DNA of 64,000 nt from Ypsolopha sequella. Taxonomy: Eukaryota > Arthropoda > Insecta > Lepidoptera > Ypsolophidae. The stretch is taken from the NCBI GenBank assembly GCA_934047225.1, contig OW204001.1, positions 13,810,201 through 13,874,200 of the forward strand. The letters are read 5' to 3'. Shown here piece after piece: positions 920 to 60,591 of the stretch (position 1 is its first letter; each line of letters begins with the position of its first letter). A program made the translations under genes and the position numbers. Below the pieces are notes generated by a model. That model made no database searches. It was not told the origin of the DNA and saw nothing but the letters and a program-made list of their open reading frames with translations.

Positions 920-1498
920 TCAATCCAGAACCTTTACACCTGAAGCCGTCTGCACTCTAGCAACACGTGCAAAACCGTCCTTGCCTGTGTAGACATTTGT
1001 AATGATACCTACAGGCCAGTGTAATCTACTTTTGTCCGTCTCTATAAGTACTAACTCTCCTATTTTGGGTTCGTTTCTGTCGCTTTTGCCTTTGCTAATG
1101 AGTAGAGACAAATATTCATTTTTGAATCTTTTTCTAAAGTCTTCTCTCAGTTGCTGTAAGTACTTATAGCGAACTTGTAAGTTTTGTTGGTCAATTTTGT
1201 CTATGTCTGGTGTATCACCTGTTGGCAAACTCTGTAGAAAGATCATAGGTGTAAGCGGTTTAACGTCTCCCATCTCTACATACTCGTATGTCAGAGGTCT
1301 GCTGTTGATAACACTTTCGCAGTCACATAGGATAGTTGAAAGTTCTATCCAGTCAAGCGACGCTTTGCCGAGAATTCGACGTAACATGTCTTTAACTATT
1401 CTGATGAGACGCTCCCACCATCCTCCCCACCACGGAGCTGATGGTACGGAAAACTTCCACTGTATCCTGTAGCAGGTGGTTTCTTCTTCAATTTCTTT
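920..1498 (-). pseudogene. BEL integrase C-terminal fragment
   Basis: The minus-strand open frame starts near the deletion junction (about 1498) and ends at a stop at 920. It carries a WKF...PSAPWWGGWWERL segment, then SRPLTY and a C-terminal stretch with LVLIE...HWPVGII. These are hallmarks of the region behind the integrase core in BEL/Pao Pol (the DUF5641-type tail). The DDE core is absent. The first ATG in frame is at 1387, but in an intact element this would be the end of a long Pol. Here it overlaps the end of the gag-protease frame in a different frame. It is non-functional as an integrase. Confidence 0.85.
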
Positions 1499-3567
1499 AT
1501 ATTTTCCAACTTCTTAGTAGTGGACCTTAGTCTTTTCTCTGCTTGGTCATAGTTCGTTTCTAGCTGCGGACCATCGAGCTTCCATATCAAGCCAACTTCA
1601 TATTGTTTATCTTCATTAACTGTAATGTCAAGGTAATTGGTATCATTACGTTCTTTATGATATGGCTCTTTAATACCTAGAGTTTCCATATTCCATAAGA
1701 ATTCTAATGACTCCTCATCTGATACTGTTGTCGCTGTCACAAAGTTTGTTATGCTCATGTTACTGTATACTGCATTTGAAATTTCAATAGGCCCTTGTAG
1801 AGTCCAGCCCAGCTTTGTACTGACAGCTACCAGTTTGTCAGTTAAATGTATGAGGTTTCCATTCAAAATGCAGCCCAGATAATCTGAACCGATAAGCAAA
1901 TCTATCTCGTTGATAGTCTTCAAATTGTTATCAGCATCAGTAAGATGAATCTGATGATTTTTAAGTTTTGTTAAGATATCTGCATCTTGTACCCTAGGTA
2001 AATTGCCACAAAGTCTTTCTTGTTCCAAACCTGTCATTGTGGTTGTGTAACTATTGTTTAAATCACTTACTTGAAACTTGTATACTTTATGTGTTTGTGT
2101 AGCCTTTTTGACATCACCAAATAGTGAGTGACTTATATTCTCACTTCCCGTTTCCTGTAGTCCAAGTTCTTGCGCTAGACTAGTCCTCACATAGGTACGC
2201 TGTGAGCCAGAGTCCAGAAGAGTTCTTACTTTTTTGTCCCCCTTGGTTCCCGAAATTTTCAAAACTAATGTTTGTAACACCGTTGTGTTATTGTTGCTTG
2301 AAAAGTTATTCTGTACTTCTGAGTTCTCTGGTTTCTCTGCTGTCTTTGTTTCACTGTTCTTGGACATGTCATGTATCATGGGACATAGGATAATTAGGTG
2401 ACGTTTGTTACAACACATGCACTTTATAAAAGCTTTGCAATTCTTGGCTAGATGTCCTTTCTTCAAACAAATATAACACCCACCTTTGTTTTTAACTGCA
2501 TCTTTCTTTTGTTCTAAAGTCAAAGTATTGGCTTTTCTACATTCAAAAGTATTGTGATCTTTGTCACAAAAATAACAAAGTATACGTACTTTACCTTCTT
2601 TTTCAGGTTGACCTCTTGATGACATCTGTTTTACCTGACTTGACTCGTTCACCAAGCACGCTGCGGTAGGAACCACTTCCGTTGAAGAGCTGTCTACAAA
2701 ATAGGATTTGGCTAGTTGCACCCTCCTTTCAGCCTCAACATCGGTCTGCAAAAACTTTAACAAGTTATCGAGTTTTGATTCCCCCCCTTTACATTGAACT
2801 TTACTCCAACATAGCAAAGTGCTCTCTGGTAGTGCTGATTCTATCATAGGTAATAAAATACATTCATATTTGTCTCTTATGATACCTAATGACTCTAGAA
2901 TCTGTAAATTTGCAACAATCCTATCATAAAGTAAGTCTAGTGTCACGCTATTTTTGCAGCTTACTAACTTTAACAGTTCACGAACATATATTTCAATCAG
3001 GGTTTCATCTTTGGCAAACCTGTCTTTCAGAGTTTGAATAACCTTGGGGTAATTTTCTTCGGTAGGCGGGTAGCTTTCCACGAGGTTTCTTGCTTTACTC
3101 TCTGAGGTCATCGCTTGGCTTAAATACTGAAATTTGGTTTCAGCATCCATGGACTTATCTTCATGAATTTTCTTGTATTGGCCCCAAAACGCCAGCCATG
3201 ATTTGGGGTTATCGTCAAACTTACGAATTTCAATTCGTGGAAGATTGAGGTTATGAGCTTTCTTCGTATTCTCTTCTTGTTTATAAGGCTCATCTTCTTT
3301 TGGCTTTGGTTTTTCTTGTAATTTGTATTTTAAAACCAACCACTTTTTCTTATACAAGTCGCATAAGTCATACTCTTCTTCGAAGCTTACTTCGTCGAAA
3401 TCTTTTGACGTTAACATTTCTTGGTGGATTTCTTGGTCCAGTACCTTAAGTCTGTCCATCTTTTCTGCGAGAAAGTCTAAATCCACTTGCGAAGACGCGG
3501 TCTGTTCGTGGCGTGAAAACGCCCGTCGTATCTGATCACGTTCGCGTATTTTCTTGGTGAGATCCAT
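1396..3567 (-). CDS. BEL/Pao Gag-protease polyprotein (723 aa)
   Basis: The reading frame opens with ATG at 3567, about 40 bases inside the 5' LTR. It has a charged N-terminal part and a DUF1759-like Gag core at about residues 105-255 (LPRIEIRKF, then SWLAFW). Next come three zinc-knuckle-like clusters: C331/C334/H338/C343, a canonical CX2CX4HX4C at C364/C367/H372/C377, and a CC...H...C set near 383-395. An aspartic protease follows with the catalytic triad D452-S-G (DSGS). The frame stays open for 723 codons without disruption. It runs past protease toward the missing reverse transcriptase and ends in about 30 out-of-frame residues after the deletion junction near 1480-1500. The product would package RNA and form particles; protease could mature it. 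Family assignment is firm; activity is inference. Confidence 0.9.
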   Translation of the reverse strand: MDLTKKIRERDQIRRAFSRHEQTASSQVDLDFLAEKMDRLKVLDQEIHQEMLTSKDFDEVSFEEEYDLCDLYKKKWLVLKYKLQEKPKPKEDEPYKQEENTKKAHNLNLPRIEIRKFDDNPKSWLAFWGQYKKIHEDKSMDAETKFQYLSQAMTSESKARNLVESYPPTEENYPKVIQTLKDRFAKDETLIEIYVRELLKLVSCKNSVTLDLLYDRIVANLQILESLGIIRDKYECILLPMIESALPESTLLCWSKVQCKGGESKLDNLLKFLQTDVEAERRVQLAKSYFVDSSSTEVVPTAACLVNESSQVKQMSSRGQPEKEGKVRILCYFCDKDHNTFECRKANTLTLEQKKDAVKNKGGCYICLKKGHLAKNCKAFIKCMCCNKRHLIILCPMIHDMSKNSETKTAEKPENSEVQNNFSSNNNTTVLQTLVLKISGTKGDKKVRTLLDSGSQRTYVRTSLAQELGLQETGSENISHSLFGDVKKATQTHKVYKFQVSDLNNSYTTTMTGLEQERLCGNLPRVQDADILTKLKNHQIHLTDADNNLKTINEIDLLIGSDYLGCILNGNLIHLTDKLVAVSTKLGWTLQGPIEISNAVYSNMSITNFVTATTVSDEESLEFLWNMETLGIKEPYHKERNDTNYLDITVNEDKQYEVGLIWKLDGPQLETNYDQAEKRLRSTTKKLENIKKLKKKPPATGYSGSFPYHQLRGGEDGGSVSSE

Positions 3568-3589
3568 CTCAAACTTGCGTTCTTTTAAA

Positions 3590-3603
3590 TCCCACGGTCG
3601 CCA
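3590..3603 (-). other. BEL primer-binding site
   Basis: Three bases inside the 5' LTR, the minus strand reads TGGCGACCGTGGGA. The first 11 bases fit the 3' end (plus CCA) of insect tRNA-Arg as I recall it, the usual primer class for several BEL families. Confidence 0.7.
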
Positions 3604-3606
3604 ATA

Positions 3607-3759
3607 TGTTCTGAAGCCACATTTATCTTGTAACTATGCTTAAATGTGGTGAATTTGCAGGTTTTTATAATTATACGCAGTTTGTTCTTTACAAATTTTA
3701 TTAGATCTGTCTAGTGACGTAAATGTCAAAAATAGTGTCTATGATATATATTCACGACA
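3607..3759 (-). repeat. 5' LTR of BEL element
   Basis: This copy appears identical to 711-863. In the element's orientation it is the promoter-bearing LTR. Minus-strand AATAAAATTT inside it could serve as a polyadenylation signal. Confidence 0.92.
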
Positions 3760-24697: not shown

Positions 24698-25462
24698 TTA
24701 GTAATAATAATAATAAAGGCGTAGGGATGTGACGACCCCATCGCCCTCTGGTACGTCCAGTACGTCCAGTGCAATCAGTCACCGCAGGGCGGCTTGTGGC
24801 GAGCCGATGGTGAGTGGCGACACCACGGACCCTACCTCCAGGGGACACTATCACACATGCGCTTACACACACACATACACACAGCAACACACCCCCGCCT
24901 CTGCGCTTGCCTTAAACAGCTGGCCAGAGTGGAGATGCTCCAGGTTGGAAGTGTAAAATTTCATAACGCCGGGGGCACTTGACTGTATAAGGATTTTGCG
25001 CACCGCAGACTCACCTCTCGACAACCTTAGCTGCTTATATAGTGTTGCCCCCTGGCCGCCCCATGGTGGCTAGATAGGGGGCCCACAACGGCTATCCTGT
25101 TGGATAGTTATCAAGCAGCAAGTCACCATCTGCCATACTTAAATTTGTGAGAGATTTTCGAGGCAGATGTCCGTTATCTCACTCCATAGCCCTGTTATCC
25201 GGCCCATTTAGCATCCCATCCTCATAGCCCACTCCAAGTCACTTCCTTCCTGGCAATAGTTTGGCAACTGTGGGGGACTGTCCGTTAGTGTATCTCAATG
25301 ATACATTGAGGGAGAGGCCTCCATTGATGCAGCCATCTCTAGATTAAATGGTACGAAAGGCCTCTTCAATGTTGGCTTCGGCCCCATGAATGCCTTTCAA
25401 ATGACTGGGTCCCTATGGGCCCGTGACTGAAAAGTGTACCTACATAATAATAAATAATAAAA
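24698..25462 (+). mobile_element. Probable non-LTR retroelement fragment with (TAA)n tails
   Basis: This GC-rich island sits in AT-rich DNA. It is bounded by an (AAT)n run at 24698-24716 and an AATAATAAATAATAA tail at 25446-25462, as expected for a LINE 3' region or SINE inserted beside an older tail. It includes a (CA)n-rich stretch near 24858-24885. Frames of 62-107 codons on both strands have no recognisable reverse transcriptase motif. The class is inference from the tail. Confidence 0.4.
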
Positions 25463-28394: not shown

Positions 28395-28631
28395 GCCCCC
28401 CTATTCTGTATCTTTAGTTGCCAACTGAACGAGGTGCCTATCATCAAAAACATAGATAAAAACTGAAATTTCAAAATTTCCTTTAGTGGGTATTGAACTA
28501 TTAACAATCTGTATCGTCACTTCAAGTGCGAAAATATCCTTAGGACATCGGAATTCGATAGTATATCTATGTTTTTGATGATAGACACCCAGTCCAGAAG
28601 GCAACTAGAGATACATAATAGGCCCGCTGGT
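28395..28631. mobile_element. 237-bp fold-back MITE, copy A
   Basis: Ends pair as CTATTCTGTATCTTTAGTTGCC with the complement of GGCAACTAGAGATACATAATAG. A second inner pair is CTATCATCAAAAACATAGAT with ATCTATGTTTTTGATGATAG. Copy B at 60355-60591 is about 95% alike and copy C at 57660-57884 is more diverged. The 67-codon minus frame is shared by A and B only because the DNA is repeated. Confidence 0.88.
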
Positions 28632-48199: not shown

Positions 48200-48320
48200 T
48201 TAATGTACTCTTCCCATTTCAACACCACCAAGGTTTCCTAAGTAAGGGTATCCTGACTTGGCTTCTGATGGAGAATGCGCGTGCGTTGTGTAGTGTGAAG
48301 GATTCGTGCCGAAAAATGAG
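48200..48320 (-). CDS. gsb: gsb terminal coding exon
   Basis: A strong acceptor (pyrimidine run, then TTTGTTACAG) precedes it on the minus strand. Joined to the donor at 51406 it completes AG+C as Ser and then codes 39 residues ([20 protein letters not shown] onward) to TAA at 48200-48202. The composition (Ser, His, Tyr, Gly) continues the style of the upstream tail, and the phase fits exactly. It is found only through splice logic, being too short to stand out as an open frame. Confidence 0.8.
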
Positions 48321-55339: not shown

Positions 55340-58300
55340 GAGTGTCCACCCACACAACTAAATCGAAATTTTATTCACACATTAATACGATTCTCGATGT
55401 CACGTGACCTGCCATTAATTTATCTGATCCACCTGAAAGGTCACATGTGGAGTTTCTGTCACTTACTAAACCTCCCATAGAAATTCGGGTGGTAAATTAA
55501 ATTTCACCTTATACACCCACTGACCGCTATTATTTTTAATGCTATTTGTATTGAGAGGTGGATAGGACGGTCGCCATTTCTGCACCTAAGGTCTATTGAT
55601 TTGACCATGGCTCATGGATTTGACTAATACAACTCGCAACTCGCAATAGCTGGCCTGGAGGTGCGGATTCGGATCCTTAAAGTTATTCTCAGAAAAAAAT
55701 ATCCAAATTTGTTTAAATCCGTTCTTATAGAATACCAAAGCAATGGATTTCAGCCTAAGCAAATTATTATTATGAGTTTATGAGGCTACGAAATGGAGAA
55801 GAAAAATATTTCTCAAAATAATTATTGTCGTGCCTTCGGAGTCTGGTAAATATTTTTAAAGTCGAATTTTCATGATTGGGCAAACCAATTTCTGGCGAGC
55901 TTATGCAAATACTTCAAGGAAAAGCCTCGGCCCGAAATAACCGTTAACCGCTGTCGCGGCTCGCAGGCACGAACCGCAAATTTTCAATACGCCCGGTACC
56001 CAAGGCATTGAGTACTAAGAGCTCGCTTTTCCAGTGTAGATATTATTTTAGCCTCGCACAACTTAATATGCATAATCTTATCGCTGTGCAGAATCTCTCC
56101 ACGAAACCGCACTCCTTTGAGATATTAGGAGCGCCATTTTATATTGGATAGCTATACAGCACAAGACGTGCAGTACGGACAGATTGTCGTAATGCAAGCC
56201 CCGCGGCCAAACGCGATGGGATAATAACACCTTTGGATACTAATTTCATTTTTATAACCTACAATTTTGAAGCCGACACAAGGGGCGCTGCCGTGCCGTG
56301 CGCGCGCGCTTCGATCTGGTCCCCTTTTACGTGGATTATTAACTTTATACGCCATTTCGCGAAGTTTGCAAGCTTTCAGACAGTTTCATTATAAGTATTT
56401 AGTTATAATAATAGTATACTTAACTAAATTAAGTGATTATGGCGCGGAATTAAGGCGTTAACTACTATGATGACACGGTGTGTTTTACGCTTCGTTTTTG
56501 CTGATTTCACTTGTCTTTTTATGCTAATCGTGTAGTCAAGGATCTCTTTAATTTAGCGATTCTCGTCGAGTAATTAAATATTTTTTTATTTAAACGCATT
56601 AGTTAGTTTTATTAAATTAAATGATTACCTAGTTTATGAGAGTTCACGGGCACGAGGCTTCCATTAAACTATCAAGTGGAAGCAGTACGGAACTAGCGCA
56701 ATATAAAGTTTTATGCAAACACACAATGCTAGATTTCTCGTTCAAATATACAGAAGTGTTGGAAAGCAATATTTAGGTACCTACTCTAGCTTTTATTTGA
56801 GAATTGCAACACTGAAACAATGACTGGGTTCAAATCTAGTCCATTCTTTTATTCACGGATGAGGCAATCAAGACTTATTAGGAAATCGAATCACAGGCAA
56901 AATGCTTTTAAAAAATATGAGATTTGACTAAGGGTATCAGAAAAATAGTCCGAGGTAAGTCAAACTTACCTAGAATACCATCAATGCTGTGATTCCTCCT
57001 AGGGTCGGATTCATCCCGTTTCCCTCCTCTGATAAGTCTTGATATGGAACTGACTGAGGGGGCCGTGTTTTTATCACAAACGCCTTCTTTTATAAGTTTA
57101 TCTCTAATCTCCCAGGAGAATATACCTGGGTTTTGTCTCTTCAGTTCTTCGATCCTATTCTCTACTTCTGGTGTTGCGACTCTCGGCTTTGAGCCCCCAA
57201 TCACACCAGGGCGGATGGATCCAGTTTCCTGTTGACAAATATAAATATTTAAACAACAGTCATGCACTTATCTTTTTATATGGGTTTTGGAAGCAAAATA
57301 ACAAATTATTTACTATTGAAAGGGCTTCGTGTTTATAAAAGATGTCAGTTACAGATGAAGATAAAAGGCAATTTCTATAAACCTGACTTACTTACACTCA
57401 CCAAAGAAATCATCTGATGAGGATTTACGAAACGTGACCGCACTACTAACGTTGCCATATCCACGGTCTTCAGTGGGATGTGGTGGTACGGGAGAGGACG
57501 ACCGTTGATAAATATCTCACCTGGTATCTGTTGAGAATCTTGGATACGCAACCATGAGATGATGCAGGGCTGCACTCCTACTGTTGCCATCTCCACGATC
57601 TTCTGTCGGATTTGTTTCCGGAGATGCCACAGTTGATTAACAGTCATCACCTGAGGTGAGGCCCTATTATTTATCTTTGAATCGGTGGTCAACTGAGTGC
57701 CTATCATCAAAAACATAGATATACTATCGAATTCTGATTGTCTAAGGATATGTTCGCACTTAAAGTGATGTGAGAGTAAATAGTTCATTGATCACTGAAG
57801 TTGGCAATTTTGAAAGTTAAATTTTTACGGTTTTGATAATAGGCACCCAGTTGGTAAAGGATTTAAAGGTACAAAATAGGCCCGCTGGTATATGTTGATG
57901 ATCTTGGAAACGCATATAGCTGCCGTAAGATTTCGCATGGGTGCACTCCTTCTGCCGTCATCTCTGCGGTCTTTAGTTGGATGAAGCTTAGGAAGAGCAG
58001 ACCATTGGTGTATAGTCCTTATCTGGTATCGGTTAAGGATCTTTGAGACGAAGCCATGTGAGACCCGCGGCTGCTGCGAGATTTCATAGGCTGCACTCCT
58101 ACCGCTGCCATTTCCACGCTCTTCAGTCGGGTGTAGTTGAGGAGAAACCGACACCGTTGCTAAAAAGTTCTCATCTGTTACTTATTGAGGATCTTAGAGA
58201 AACAACCATACAATACCCGCAGCTACTGCGAAACGATACAGGGCCGCAATTCCACCACTGCTATCTCCATAATCTGTAGTCGAATGGTTCGAGACAGGCC

Positions 58301-58496
58301 GACCGTTGATGAACAATCCTCACCTGGTATCTATTGAGGATCTTTGAGACGCAGCCATGTGAGACCCGCAACTGCCGCGAGATGACGCAGGGTCGCACTC
58401 CTGCTGCCGCCATCTCCACAATCTTCAGTCGGATGTGGTTCGGCAGAGGCCGACCGTTGATGAACACTCCACCCAGCTGATTCATTCGACCCTGAC
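48200..58496 (-). CDS. gsb: Gooseberry-like Pax3/7 transcription factor (spliced)
   Basis: Five coding exons join with matching phases: 58324-58496, 56970-57228, 54047-54246, 51406-51998 and 48200-48320. They give 447 residues after an unlocated N-terminal exon. Counting from the first full codon: PAI half of the paired domain at residues 2-57, RED half to about 127, octapeptide HSIDGILG at 137-144, paired-type homeodomain at about 165-224 with Ser50, then a Ser/Pro/Gln/His-rich tail. This is the Pax3/7 architecture; in insects these are the segment-polarity and neural genes gooseberry and gooseberry-neuro and the pair-rule gene paired. [20 protein letters not shown] and the octapeptide favour gooseberry over paired. 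The family binds DNA in the nucleus through both domains. The choice of gsb over gsb-n is inference. Confidence 0.88.
48321..51405 (-). other. gsb last intron
   Basis: About 3.1 kb with donor GTGAGC and acceptor TTTGTTACAG. No other gene seen. Positions 50820-51020 are GC-richer than the surroundings and include a perfect TAATTGATTA at 50907-50916. The 62-80 codon frames here lack domains. Confidence 0.7.
50907..50916. promoter_or_regulatory. Palindromic P2-type homeodomain dimer site
   Basis: TAATTGATTA has two TAAT cores separated by two bases, the spacing bound cooperatively by paired-class homeodomains. It lies in a GC-rich segment of the gsb intron, so autoregulation or cross-regulation is possible. 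Inference from motif and location only. Confidence 0.35.
51406..51998 (-). CDS. gsb: gsb exon: homeodomain helix 3 and C-terminal tail
   Basis: The acceptor TTTTTTTGTTCAG is followed by [14 protein letters not shown], that is homeodomain residues 47-60 with Ser50 and Asn51. A tail of about 180 residues follows, rich in Ser, Pro, Gln, His and Thr, with Ala/Leu-rich repeats, and carries a SHPYGYGDY segment; it is a likely transactivation region. The exon ends AATTATAG before GTGAGC. Read without splicing, that donor gives one Arg and then TGA at 51402-51404, so intron retention would make a protein 40 residues shorter with a different end. Open frames of 62-117 codons on either strand here are shadows. 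Confidence 0.9.
52743..53075 (+). mobile_element. tRNA-derived SINE
   Basis: The head has an A box (TGGCTCGAGCGG) and B box (GTTTCGATCCC, near 52793), followed by an unrelated body of about 250 bp and an A-rich end directly against the next element. No functional tRNA fold closes. Confidence 0.6.
53076..53344 (+). mobile_element. Lepidopteran dispersed element (GGCCAAGTGCGAGTCGG family), copy B
   Basis: Same family and orientation as 9169-9520, but with a single head. It runs from ACCGGCCAAGTGCGAGTCGG to GGGTACGGAACCCTAAAAA, with the same inverted AGGGTTCCGTACC/GGTACGGAACCCT pair. Confidence 0.88.
53412..53485 (+). repeat. tRNA-like SINE fragment
   Basis: A good B box (GTTTCGAATCC at about 53450) sits behind a degraded A box region (GGTTAGCGAGAGG). 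No acceptor stem, so it is not a tRNA gene. Confidence 0.45.
53553..53857. repeat. Fold-back MITE-like element
   Basis: CAATGATATTAGAAGAAAGT and GTAGATAGGTTA pair with TAACCTATCTATAC and TTTTTTCTAATATCATTG at the other end. The centre is GC-rich (GATCCGCGGGTCGCACG). About 305 bp. Confidence 0.75.
54047..54246 (-). CDS. gsb: gsb exon: linker and homeodomain residues 1-46
   Basis: The acceptor TTTGTCCTAAAG completes the Gly of the octapeptide. The exon codes an acidic linker ([13 protein letters not shown]), the basic LKRKQRR, then the N-terminal arm and helices 1-2 of a paired-class homeodomain ([20 protein letters not shown]), ending at Gln46. 200 bp: two bases complete a codon, then 66 codons. 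This ESEPG...[12 protein letters not shown] arrangement is typical of gsb, gsb-n and paired. Confidence 0.93.
54961..55513. mobile_element. Fold-back element with tandemly duplicated right arm
   Basis: Ends TATAGGGTGAAATTTAATCA and TAAATTTCACCTTATA are inverted repeats, with pairing continuing through CCCGAATTCC, GGTGGATCAGATAA and GGTCACGTGACATC. The right arm occurs twice in tandem, with CACGATGAATCCAAAGCT near 55132 and again near 55291, separated by a (TA)n run at 55307-55332. A related end is at about 659-685. Confidence 0.8.
55307..55332. repeat. (TA)n microsatellite
   Basis: Thirteen or so TA units inside the fold-back element. Confidence 0.9.
56970..57228 (-). CDS. gsb: gsb exon: RED half of paired domain and octapeptide
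   Basis: The acceptor TTTGTCAACAG is followed by [20 protein letters not shown] (linker between the two helical subdomains). Then come [24 protein letters not shown] and [11 protein letters not shown] (RED subdomain), and the octapeptide HSIDGIL(G), which in Pax proteins recruits Groucho-type co-repressors. The exon ends CTAG before GTAAGT. 259 bp: 86 codons plus one base, matching the next exon's phase. Confidence 0.95.
57402..57520 (-). pseudogene. Decayed paired-box exon copy 5
   Basis: On the minus strand it reads [16 protein letters not shown], then [10 protein letters not shown], matching the exon's [20 protein letters not shown]. The central part is deleted. The end is followed by a consensus donor-like GTGAGTGTAAGT, which may be the ancestral intron start. 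Confidence 0.8.
57521..57650 (-). pseudogene. Decayed paired-box exon copy 4, splice sites retained
   Basis: It reads VNQL, then [17 protein letters not shown], ending CAG at a GTGAGA donor. It begins after CTCACCTCAG, in the same place as the acceptor of the real exon, and is the only copy that keeps the VNQL start. Internal deletions leave 130 bp against 173, so inclusion would shift the frame. In the phase of the real exon it meets TAA within four codons. It lies in one open frame with copy 5. Confidence 0.8.
57660..57884. mobile_element. Fold-back MITE, copy C (diverged)
   Basis: It shares TGCCTATCATCAAAAACATA, the GGCACCCAGT region and the AATAGGCCCGCTGG end with the copies at 28395-28631 and 60355-60591. 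It sits between exon copies 3 and 4, so it entered after the array existed. Confidence 0.8.
57885..58022 (-). pseudogene. Decayed paired-box exon copy 3
   Basis: It retains stretches of the exon (TGGTAT, GTTGATGATCTTGGAAACGC, GTGCACTCC, GCCGTCATCTC) on the plus strand, with a deletion over the RVSHG region. The donor is lost at the MITE boundary. Confidence 0.75.
58023..58173 (-). pseudogene. Decayed paired-box exon copy 2
   Basis: Best preserved at its end: the minus strand still reads [16 protein letters not shown]. Roughly 75-80% identical to the exon by eye. The donor GT has become AT (CCAGATAAGG). Confidence 0.85.
58174..58320 (-). pseudogene. Decayed paired-box exon copy 1
   Basis: It starts almost directly after the true exon's donor: GTGAGG, then ATTGTTCATCAACGGTCGGC, which matches GTGTTCATCAACGGTCGGCC of the exon. 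Similarity of about three quarters runs through the whole unit. The copy has frame-breaking changes and its donor is lost (AACAGATGAG). Confidence 0.85.
58324..58496 (-). CDS. gsb: gsb exon: PAI half of paired domain
   Basis: The acceptor TTTCACCATCAG is followed by [20 protein letters not shown], then [30 protein letters not shown] and LNRYQ. This is the N-terminal beta unit and three helices of a paired domain, the half that makes the main DNA contacts. 173 bp: two bases plus 57 codons, ending in phase 0 at GTGAGG. The usual GRVNQLGG has Met for Val. The previous exon should end in phase 1 with a Gly codon. The internal ATG could be mistaken for the start, but the upstream GQGR is conserved family sequence, so translation begins earlier. 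Confidence 0.93.
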
Positions 58497-60354: not shown

Positions 60355-60591
60355 GCCCCCCTATTCTGTATCTTTAGTTGCCAACTGCACGAGGTGCCTA
60401 TCATCAAAAACATAGCTAAAAACTGAAATTTTAAAATTGCCTTTAGTGAGTATTGAACTATTAACAATCTGTGTCGTCACTTCAAGTGTGAAAATATCCT
60501 TAGGACATAGGAATTCGATAGTATATCTATGTTTTTGATGATAGACACCCAGTCCAGAAGGCAACTAGAGATACACAATAGGCCCGCTGGT
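60355..60591. mobile_element. 237-bp fold-back MITE, copy B
   Basis: Nearly identical to 28395-28631 over the full length, in the same orientation, including the internal palindrome. Confidence 0.88.

Follow-up and report, generated by a model that had tools for sequence, protein, structure and literature searches.

The intron behind the PAI exon of a paired-box gene of Ypsolopha sequella contains sequence that resembles the exon itself, which raises the question of whether this sequence was once spliced as alternative exons or came about through mutation alone. The intron lies on the minus strand of the window, the whole stretch of 64,000 nucleotides that was analysed. The initial annotation described five degenerate copies of the exon that fill the intron and offered two explanations for them: a relic of mutually exclusive exons, or a purely mutational array that splicing must ignore.

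The host gene and its PAI exon

The host gene, as identified by similarity searches, is lepidopteran gooseberry (Pax3/7), encoded on the minus strand, with predicted paired domain and homeodomain. The joined paired box matches the PAX family of Pfam (PF00292) with an E-value of 1.9e-73, and its nearest solved structure is the paired domain of Drosophila Prd (1pdn). The joined protein of 409 amino acids, assembled without the first and last exons, shares 90% identity, with query coverage of 100%, with the gooseberry proteins of Helicoverpa armigera and Chilo suppressalis, the records of which carry homeobox domains. The Pfam match and the identity to lepidopteran gooseberry bear out the earlier assignment of the host gene to Pax3/7. 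The best 30 among the 120 listed matches (of 7112) are lepidopteran by name, with the exception of the unnamed protein P0026, and the placement in the order Lepidoptera is accordingly well founded.

The functional PAI exon (58496-58324, minus strand) is 173 nt long, comprises 58 codons including a split glycine, and ends in phase 0. Its acceptor is ...CACCATCAG/GT and its donor ACCAG/GTGAGG, where the slash marks the splice junction. The next exon (57228-56970, minus strand) encodes the remaining part of the paired domain (ETGSIRPG...ILG). The homeobox coding stretch was located by tblastn at about 54247-54044, and further gooseberry coding stretches at about 51998-51408 and 48325-48203, so that the homeobox and C-terminal exons could be traced as far as GRVH at 48203.

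The peptide encoded by the PAI exon is nearly invariant. The 120 listed matches include 31 named lepidopteran proteins, of which 28 are identical to it over the 57-58 residues aligned; the other three (P0011, P0033, and P0095) are models without the full exon. Several of these entries are isoforms or come from the same genus, and the rows are therefore not independent. One of two unnamed proteins in the lepidopteran group has a single difference in this peptide. In an alignment of 18 proteins picked partly by length, the residues NRYQ and ETGS, which flank the array intron, directly adjoin in 16. Ten of these 18 proteins jump from RQNP to GPSS and drop part of the paired domain; the jump coincides with an alternative donor inside the second paired-domain exon (CCCAG/GTATAT, first intron base 57125, minus strand).

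A probable alternative first exon is positioned at 62015-62003 on the minus strand (ATGAGCAAAACGC/GTGAGT). It reads MSKTR, would join the PAI exon in frame, and resembles isoforms with MNKTRQGRMNQ from other Lepidoptera. A minus-strand search of the window that tolerated up to six substitutions did not find the usual first exon (MAVSTLNMTPYFTGYSFQ).

Structure of the array and its joints

The array intron (58323-57229, minus strand) is 1095 nt long. BLASTN and repeat finding confirmed five decayed copies on the same strand, arranged head to tail behind the PAI exon, and the repeated diagonal predicted for a self-comparison of the region was recovered as five families of direct repeats. The steps of the direct repeats are about 130-152 nt, and longer where a copy or a transposon intervenes; the first three steps between copies are 151, 149, and 152 nt. 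Tandem Repeats Finder reports a period of 149 nt from 58016 to 58470. When the 173-nt exon was compared with the 64-kb window by BLASTN, the best E-values were 7e-29 for copy 2, 7e-23 for copy 1, 4e-19 for copy 4, 2e-10 for copy 5, and 3e-9 for copy 3, and the only match beyond the array region was an 11-mer (E = 4.4). The copies are 71-84% identical to the PAI exon. The local alignment of the exon with the intron scores 161, compared to a maximum of 33 among 300 base-shuffled introns. By tblastn with three of the 120 listed proteins, duplicates of other gooseberry exons were not detected in the window; the one exception, at 25199-25276, matched weakly (E 0.07-0.40). Viral and prokaryotic contigs scanned with the paired-box protein yielded no confirmed relative, a result that has no bearing on insects.

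All five copies are exon tails on the minus strand. Copy 1 (58313-58165) begins at about exon nucleotide 33, carries a 2-nt deletion and two stops in the projected exon frame, and has lost its donor (CAG/ATGAGA). Copy 2 (58164-58013) has a 2-nt insertion and a 1-nt deletion, and its donor is also lost (CAG/ATAAGG). Copy 3 (58012-57641) contains deletions of 1, 11, and 2 nt and a 1-nt insertion, and is split near its donor by a transposon, beyond which the joint reads CAG/GTGATG. Copy 4 (57640-57513) has a 20-nt deletion and two 1-nt deletions, and retains an intact donor (CAG/GTGAGA), the best kept of the five copies. The outermost copy 5 (57512 to about 57408) is shortened by an internal deletion and includes one stop; its 3' part aligns poorly, and its end was placed by eye. 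The tail of copy 5, CAG/ATGATTTC, and the loss of its donor (ATGATT) were likewise read by eye, and the tail continues into other intron sequence. The rest of the intron (57407-57229, minus strand), which ends with the acceptor TTTGTCAACAG, is presumably the original intron. Copies and transposon together occupy about 906 of the 1095 bases. The array does not fill the intron alone: 225 nt belong to the transposon, and the 3' end consists of about 180 nt of other intron sequence.

The transposon at the end of copy 3 (57884-57660) is a MITE-like element of 225 bp with terminal inverted repeats, delineated by inverted-repeat alignment and BLASTN. Two relatives in the window, at 28399-28626 and 60360-60586, are about 75-77% identical to the element of copy 3, and 96% alike to each other in a three-way alignment with it. 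The relative at 60360 falls within the stretch that separates the PAI exon from the probable alternative first exon. Remains of a retrotransposon are present at 920-3633 on the minus strand, with DUF1759 and aspartyl-protease-type domains (PF03564, PF13650, PF05585) and DUF5641 (PF18701), a domain set known from BEL/Pao elements.

The five joints are of one form. The CAG at the end of the preceding unit is followed by 8-10 bases of the donor side of the intron and then by sequence similar to TTCATCAACGG, and exon sequence resumes at base 33 after each joint. The donor-side bases are GTGAGGATTG after the real exon, and ATGAGAACTT, ATAAGGACTA, GTGATGACTG, and GTGAGATA in the later joints. The common form of the joints indicates that the copies share one breakpoint pair, as expected of a tandem duplication array with head-to-tail units on the same strand. 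The similarity of the joint to exon bases 27-32 leaves the breakpoint ambiguous by a few bases.

BLASTN matches to the copies begin at exon nucleotide 27 or beyond, and at least exon bases 1-26 are missing. A search with exon nucleotides 1-32 and 44 nt of the upstream intron gave no match longer than 7 nt in the intron (best E 3.5), and the 3' splice site of the exon is absent from all five copies. The form of the joints and the missing exon start define the repeated unit as the donor-side tail of the exon together with its donor, about 151 nt in length. The copies are therefore derived from the exon, as was originally described, but each of them is partial, extends from about exon base 33, and represents the donor side only.

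Two other interpretations of the units were rejected. Copy 4 could be read as a full exon with an acceptor of its own (CTCAG/GTGATGACTGTTAATCAACTG), but the joint alignment shows the usual array joint beside the transposon end. An origin as processed pseudogenes is ruled out because each joint keeps the 8-10 bases that resemble the donor side of the intron.

Decay of the copies and origin of the array

Frame-breaking insertions or deletions are present in all five copies, of which copy 5 aligns poorly in its 3' part. Stretches of copies 2 and 4 can still be read as protein, and the traces quoted in the initial annotation (IFINGRPLP in copy 5 and others in copies 4 and 2) are present in the sequence. 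The 70 changes that are private to single copies are distributed as 17, 27, and 26 over codon positions 1, 2, and 3 (p = 0.28, with copy 5 cut at column 78), and no coding constraint is detected in the copies. Base changes from G/C to A/T outnumber the reverse 86 to 36, which is the direction of the intron composition. The G of the donor GT was lost in three of the five copies (copy 5 by eye). Selective loss of donors was considered, but the chance of at least three losses in five is 0.098, which is not significant. As the losses are within neutral expectation, there is no sign of selection on the donors in either direction.

The raw differences between exon and copies, counted with copy 5 in full, are skewed towards the third codon position (29/213, 45/214, and 71/217 at positions 1, 2, and 3). 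Five third-position columns contain a non-exon base shared by at least three copies, whereas 0.69 are expected (p = 0.001, 3000 simulations), and in the exon each of them is a synonymous position, as read from the sequence (Leu, Ile, Ala, Ala, and Asn). Two such columns occur at codon positions 1 and 2, versus 0.99 expected (p = 0.26). The third-position skew is attributed to silent changes in the exon lineage, with which the counts agree, the sites being few. The copies thus seem to retain the older synonymous bases at positions where the exon changed silently. If the five shared columns are exon-lineage changes, they imply that the exon was kept under purifying selection after the copies had left it.

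Differences between exon and copies amount to 16-29%, and those between copies to 27-39%. The corresponding K80 distances from the exon (0.19-0.36) are mostly below those between copies (0.33-0.58), and the divergence from the exon is homogeneous across the five copies (p = 0.45). In the tree, the branch of the exon is 0.039 long, compared to 0.15-0.28 for the copies. The tree is star-like, with internal bootstraps of 27-50, and gives no order of duplication.

The array very probably originated from one tandem duplication across the 5' splice site, which was amplified, and the resulting acceptor-less tails then decayed neutrally. The initial small duplication would have comprised the last ~141 bases of the PAI exon, the 5' splice site, and ~10 bases of the intron. 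Unequal exchange or slippage may then have amplified the unit to at least five extra copies. An internal exon is recognised through its acceptor and the donor that follows. Since the duplication would have left an acceptor on the proximal unit alone, the old exon would still have been spliced and the extra tails would have become intron. The proximal copy would thus have retained the acceptor and the exon start, and splicing would have continued to use that copy and, as we infer, its own donor. Without an acceptor and an exon start, the extra copies would have been dead on arrival and free to decay neutrally; the MITE-like transposon would have split copy 3 later. The intron would have grown about 5.8-fold, from a putative ancestral length of ~190 nt to 1095 nt, and the protein would have remained unchanged. 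The copies sit inside the intron between NRYQ and ETGS, and their joints already bear donor-side intron bases; the intron itself appears to predate the duplication, in which case the array lengthened an existing intron.

The joints and distances are best matched by a single event with one breakpoint pair and a subsequent burst of amplification. One non-synonymous base differing from the exon is common to four of the five copies, but this is not significant (p = 0.066), and a single mutated founder is only suggested by such shared states. Changes at codon positions 1 and 2 total 66 of 401, or about 0.165 per site and about 0.19 after correction (computed by hand). With the mutation rates per generation of 0.29 x 10^-8 for Heliconius and 0.41 x 10^-8 for the silkworm reported in PMC10048334, a rough estimate of the age of the array is some 45-65 million generations. 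From this age, related moths are predicted to share the array.

The best-surviving alternative is that the copies arose from the exon separately and at different times, by duplications or gene conversion, and that no single founder was amplified. The star-like tree with its low bootstraps is compatible with such a history, as is the position of the exon as the nearest sequence to nearly all copies. This origin is nevertheless unlikely, since one kind of joint is found at all five junctions and the derived non-synonymous base is common to four of the copies.

A functional role, in which the donors or repeats of the array would control how the paired-box exon is spliced, for instance as a switch to transcript decay, is less likely still, and we give it little credence. 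The donor of copy 4 matches the real donor in quality (by eye), and a potential cryptic exon of 130 nt (57650-57521), which extends from CTCAG/GTGATG to the donor of copy 4, would shift the frame. Readthrough from the PAI exon into the array would also reach a stop 20 codons further on. However, the loss of three of five donors is what neutral decay predicts, and the private changes are evenly spread. Because of the stop, splicing at a later donor would be deleterious, and the donor of copy 4 is the chief remaining splicing risk.

The first explanation of the initial annotation, that the array is a relic of a mutually exclusive cluster of several full, alternatively spliced PAI exons of which all but one decayed, is highly improbable. 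Tandem exon copies on the same strand are believed to be the starting point of such clusters (PMC6071210), and protein traces persist in the copies. Nevertheless, the exon start (at least nucleotides 1-26) and the acceptor occur in none of the five copies, and the copies therefore lack first codons. The five joints are alike, and the first three steps nearly equal. Exons of a cluster would each possess an acceptor and a donor, but the donor is kept in copy 4, a GT is found beyond the transposon in copy 3, and the other three donors are lost. They would also be open, compatible in frame, and constrained in coding, whereas all five frames are broken and the private changes show no constraint by codon position. 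Furthermore, the 120 listed matches (of 7112) include 31 named lepidopteran proteins, none of which has an alternative PAI sequence. The second explanation, a purely mutational array, is supported. An assembly artefact or collapsed haplotypes are very unlikely, given the divergence of the copies from the exon and from one another and the transposon that one copy holds.

Known duplications and implications for intron growth

Tandem duplications of exons are known and include unannotated duplicates in introns, as described in PMC9013439, which itself cites a 2002 study. The gooseberry array resembles these cases in that tandem duplication gave rise to intron sequence with homology to an exon in its own gene. 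However, the duplicates treated in PMC9013439 are candidate exons, some of them expressed, whereas the gooseberry array consists of five decayed copies of a donor-side tail without acceptors. Tandem exon duplication has also been linked with mutually exclusive splicing (PMC6071210). The clusters described there have tandem exon copies in common with the gooseberry array; in contrast to them, the gooseberry copies have no acceptors, intact frames, or detectable selection.

Duplications across splice boundaries are known as a source of intron gain (PMC4974935; PMC2809761). In the potato RdRp case reported in PMC4974935, as in gooseberry, a boundary-crossing duplication inherited splice signals and spared the coding sequence. 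The potato unit spans an intron-exon boundary, whereas the gooseberry unit spans the 5' splice site and was amplified; the potato duplication made a new intron, whereas the gooseberry array appears to lengthen one. In fission yeast, an intron spans tandem repeats of a 24-bp exonic segment with AGGT (cited in PMC4974935), and there, as here, several tandem exon pieces with AGGT lie inside an intron. The yeast unit, as cited there, is short and wholly exonic, in contrast to the decayed, donor-spanning unit of about 151 bp in gooseberry. Exon duplications and boundary-crossing duplications are therefore known, and the variant found here is an amplified, acceptor-less exon tail. Among the titles and abstract openings listed in a limited literature search, none described such an array in a Pax gene, which neither establishes nor contradicts the remark in the initial annotation that no such case is known in this family.

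It is possible, as a tentative generalisation, that introns grow when the tail of the preceding exon is duplicated repeatedly, even beside a nearly invariant exon. Selection would hardly see a unit that spans the 5' splice site, since the first pair of acceptor and donor would still prevail. If this is true, mirror events at 3' splice sites should be rarer, and across the genome fossil exon tails should frequently be found behind 5' splice sites. Related moths should share the gooseberry array, which would then record the ancestral synonymous bases of the exon.

The paired-box-like pseudoexon sequence could fool gene predictors or domain searches into adding exons. The understanding of gooseberry function is unaffected. 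The locus is a clear example of much the same DNA evolving side by side, with selection in the exon and without it in the five copies, and the array suggests a simple way, open to testing, in which introns may lengthen.
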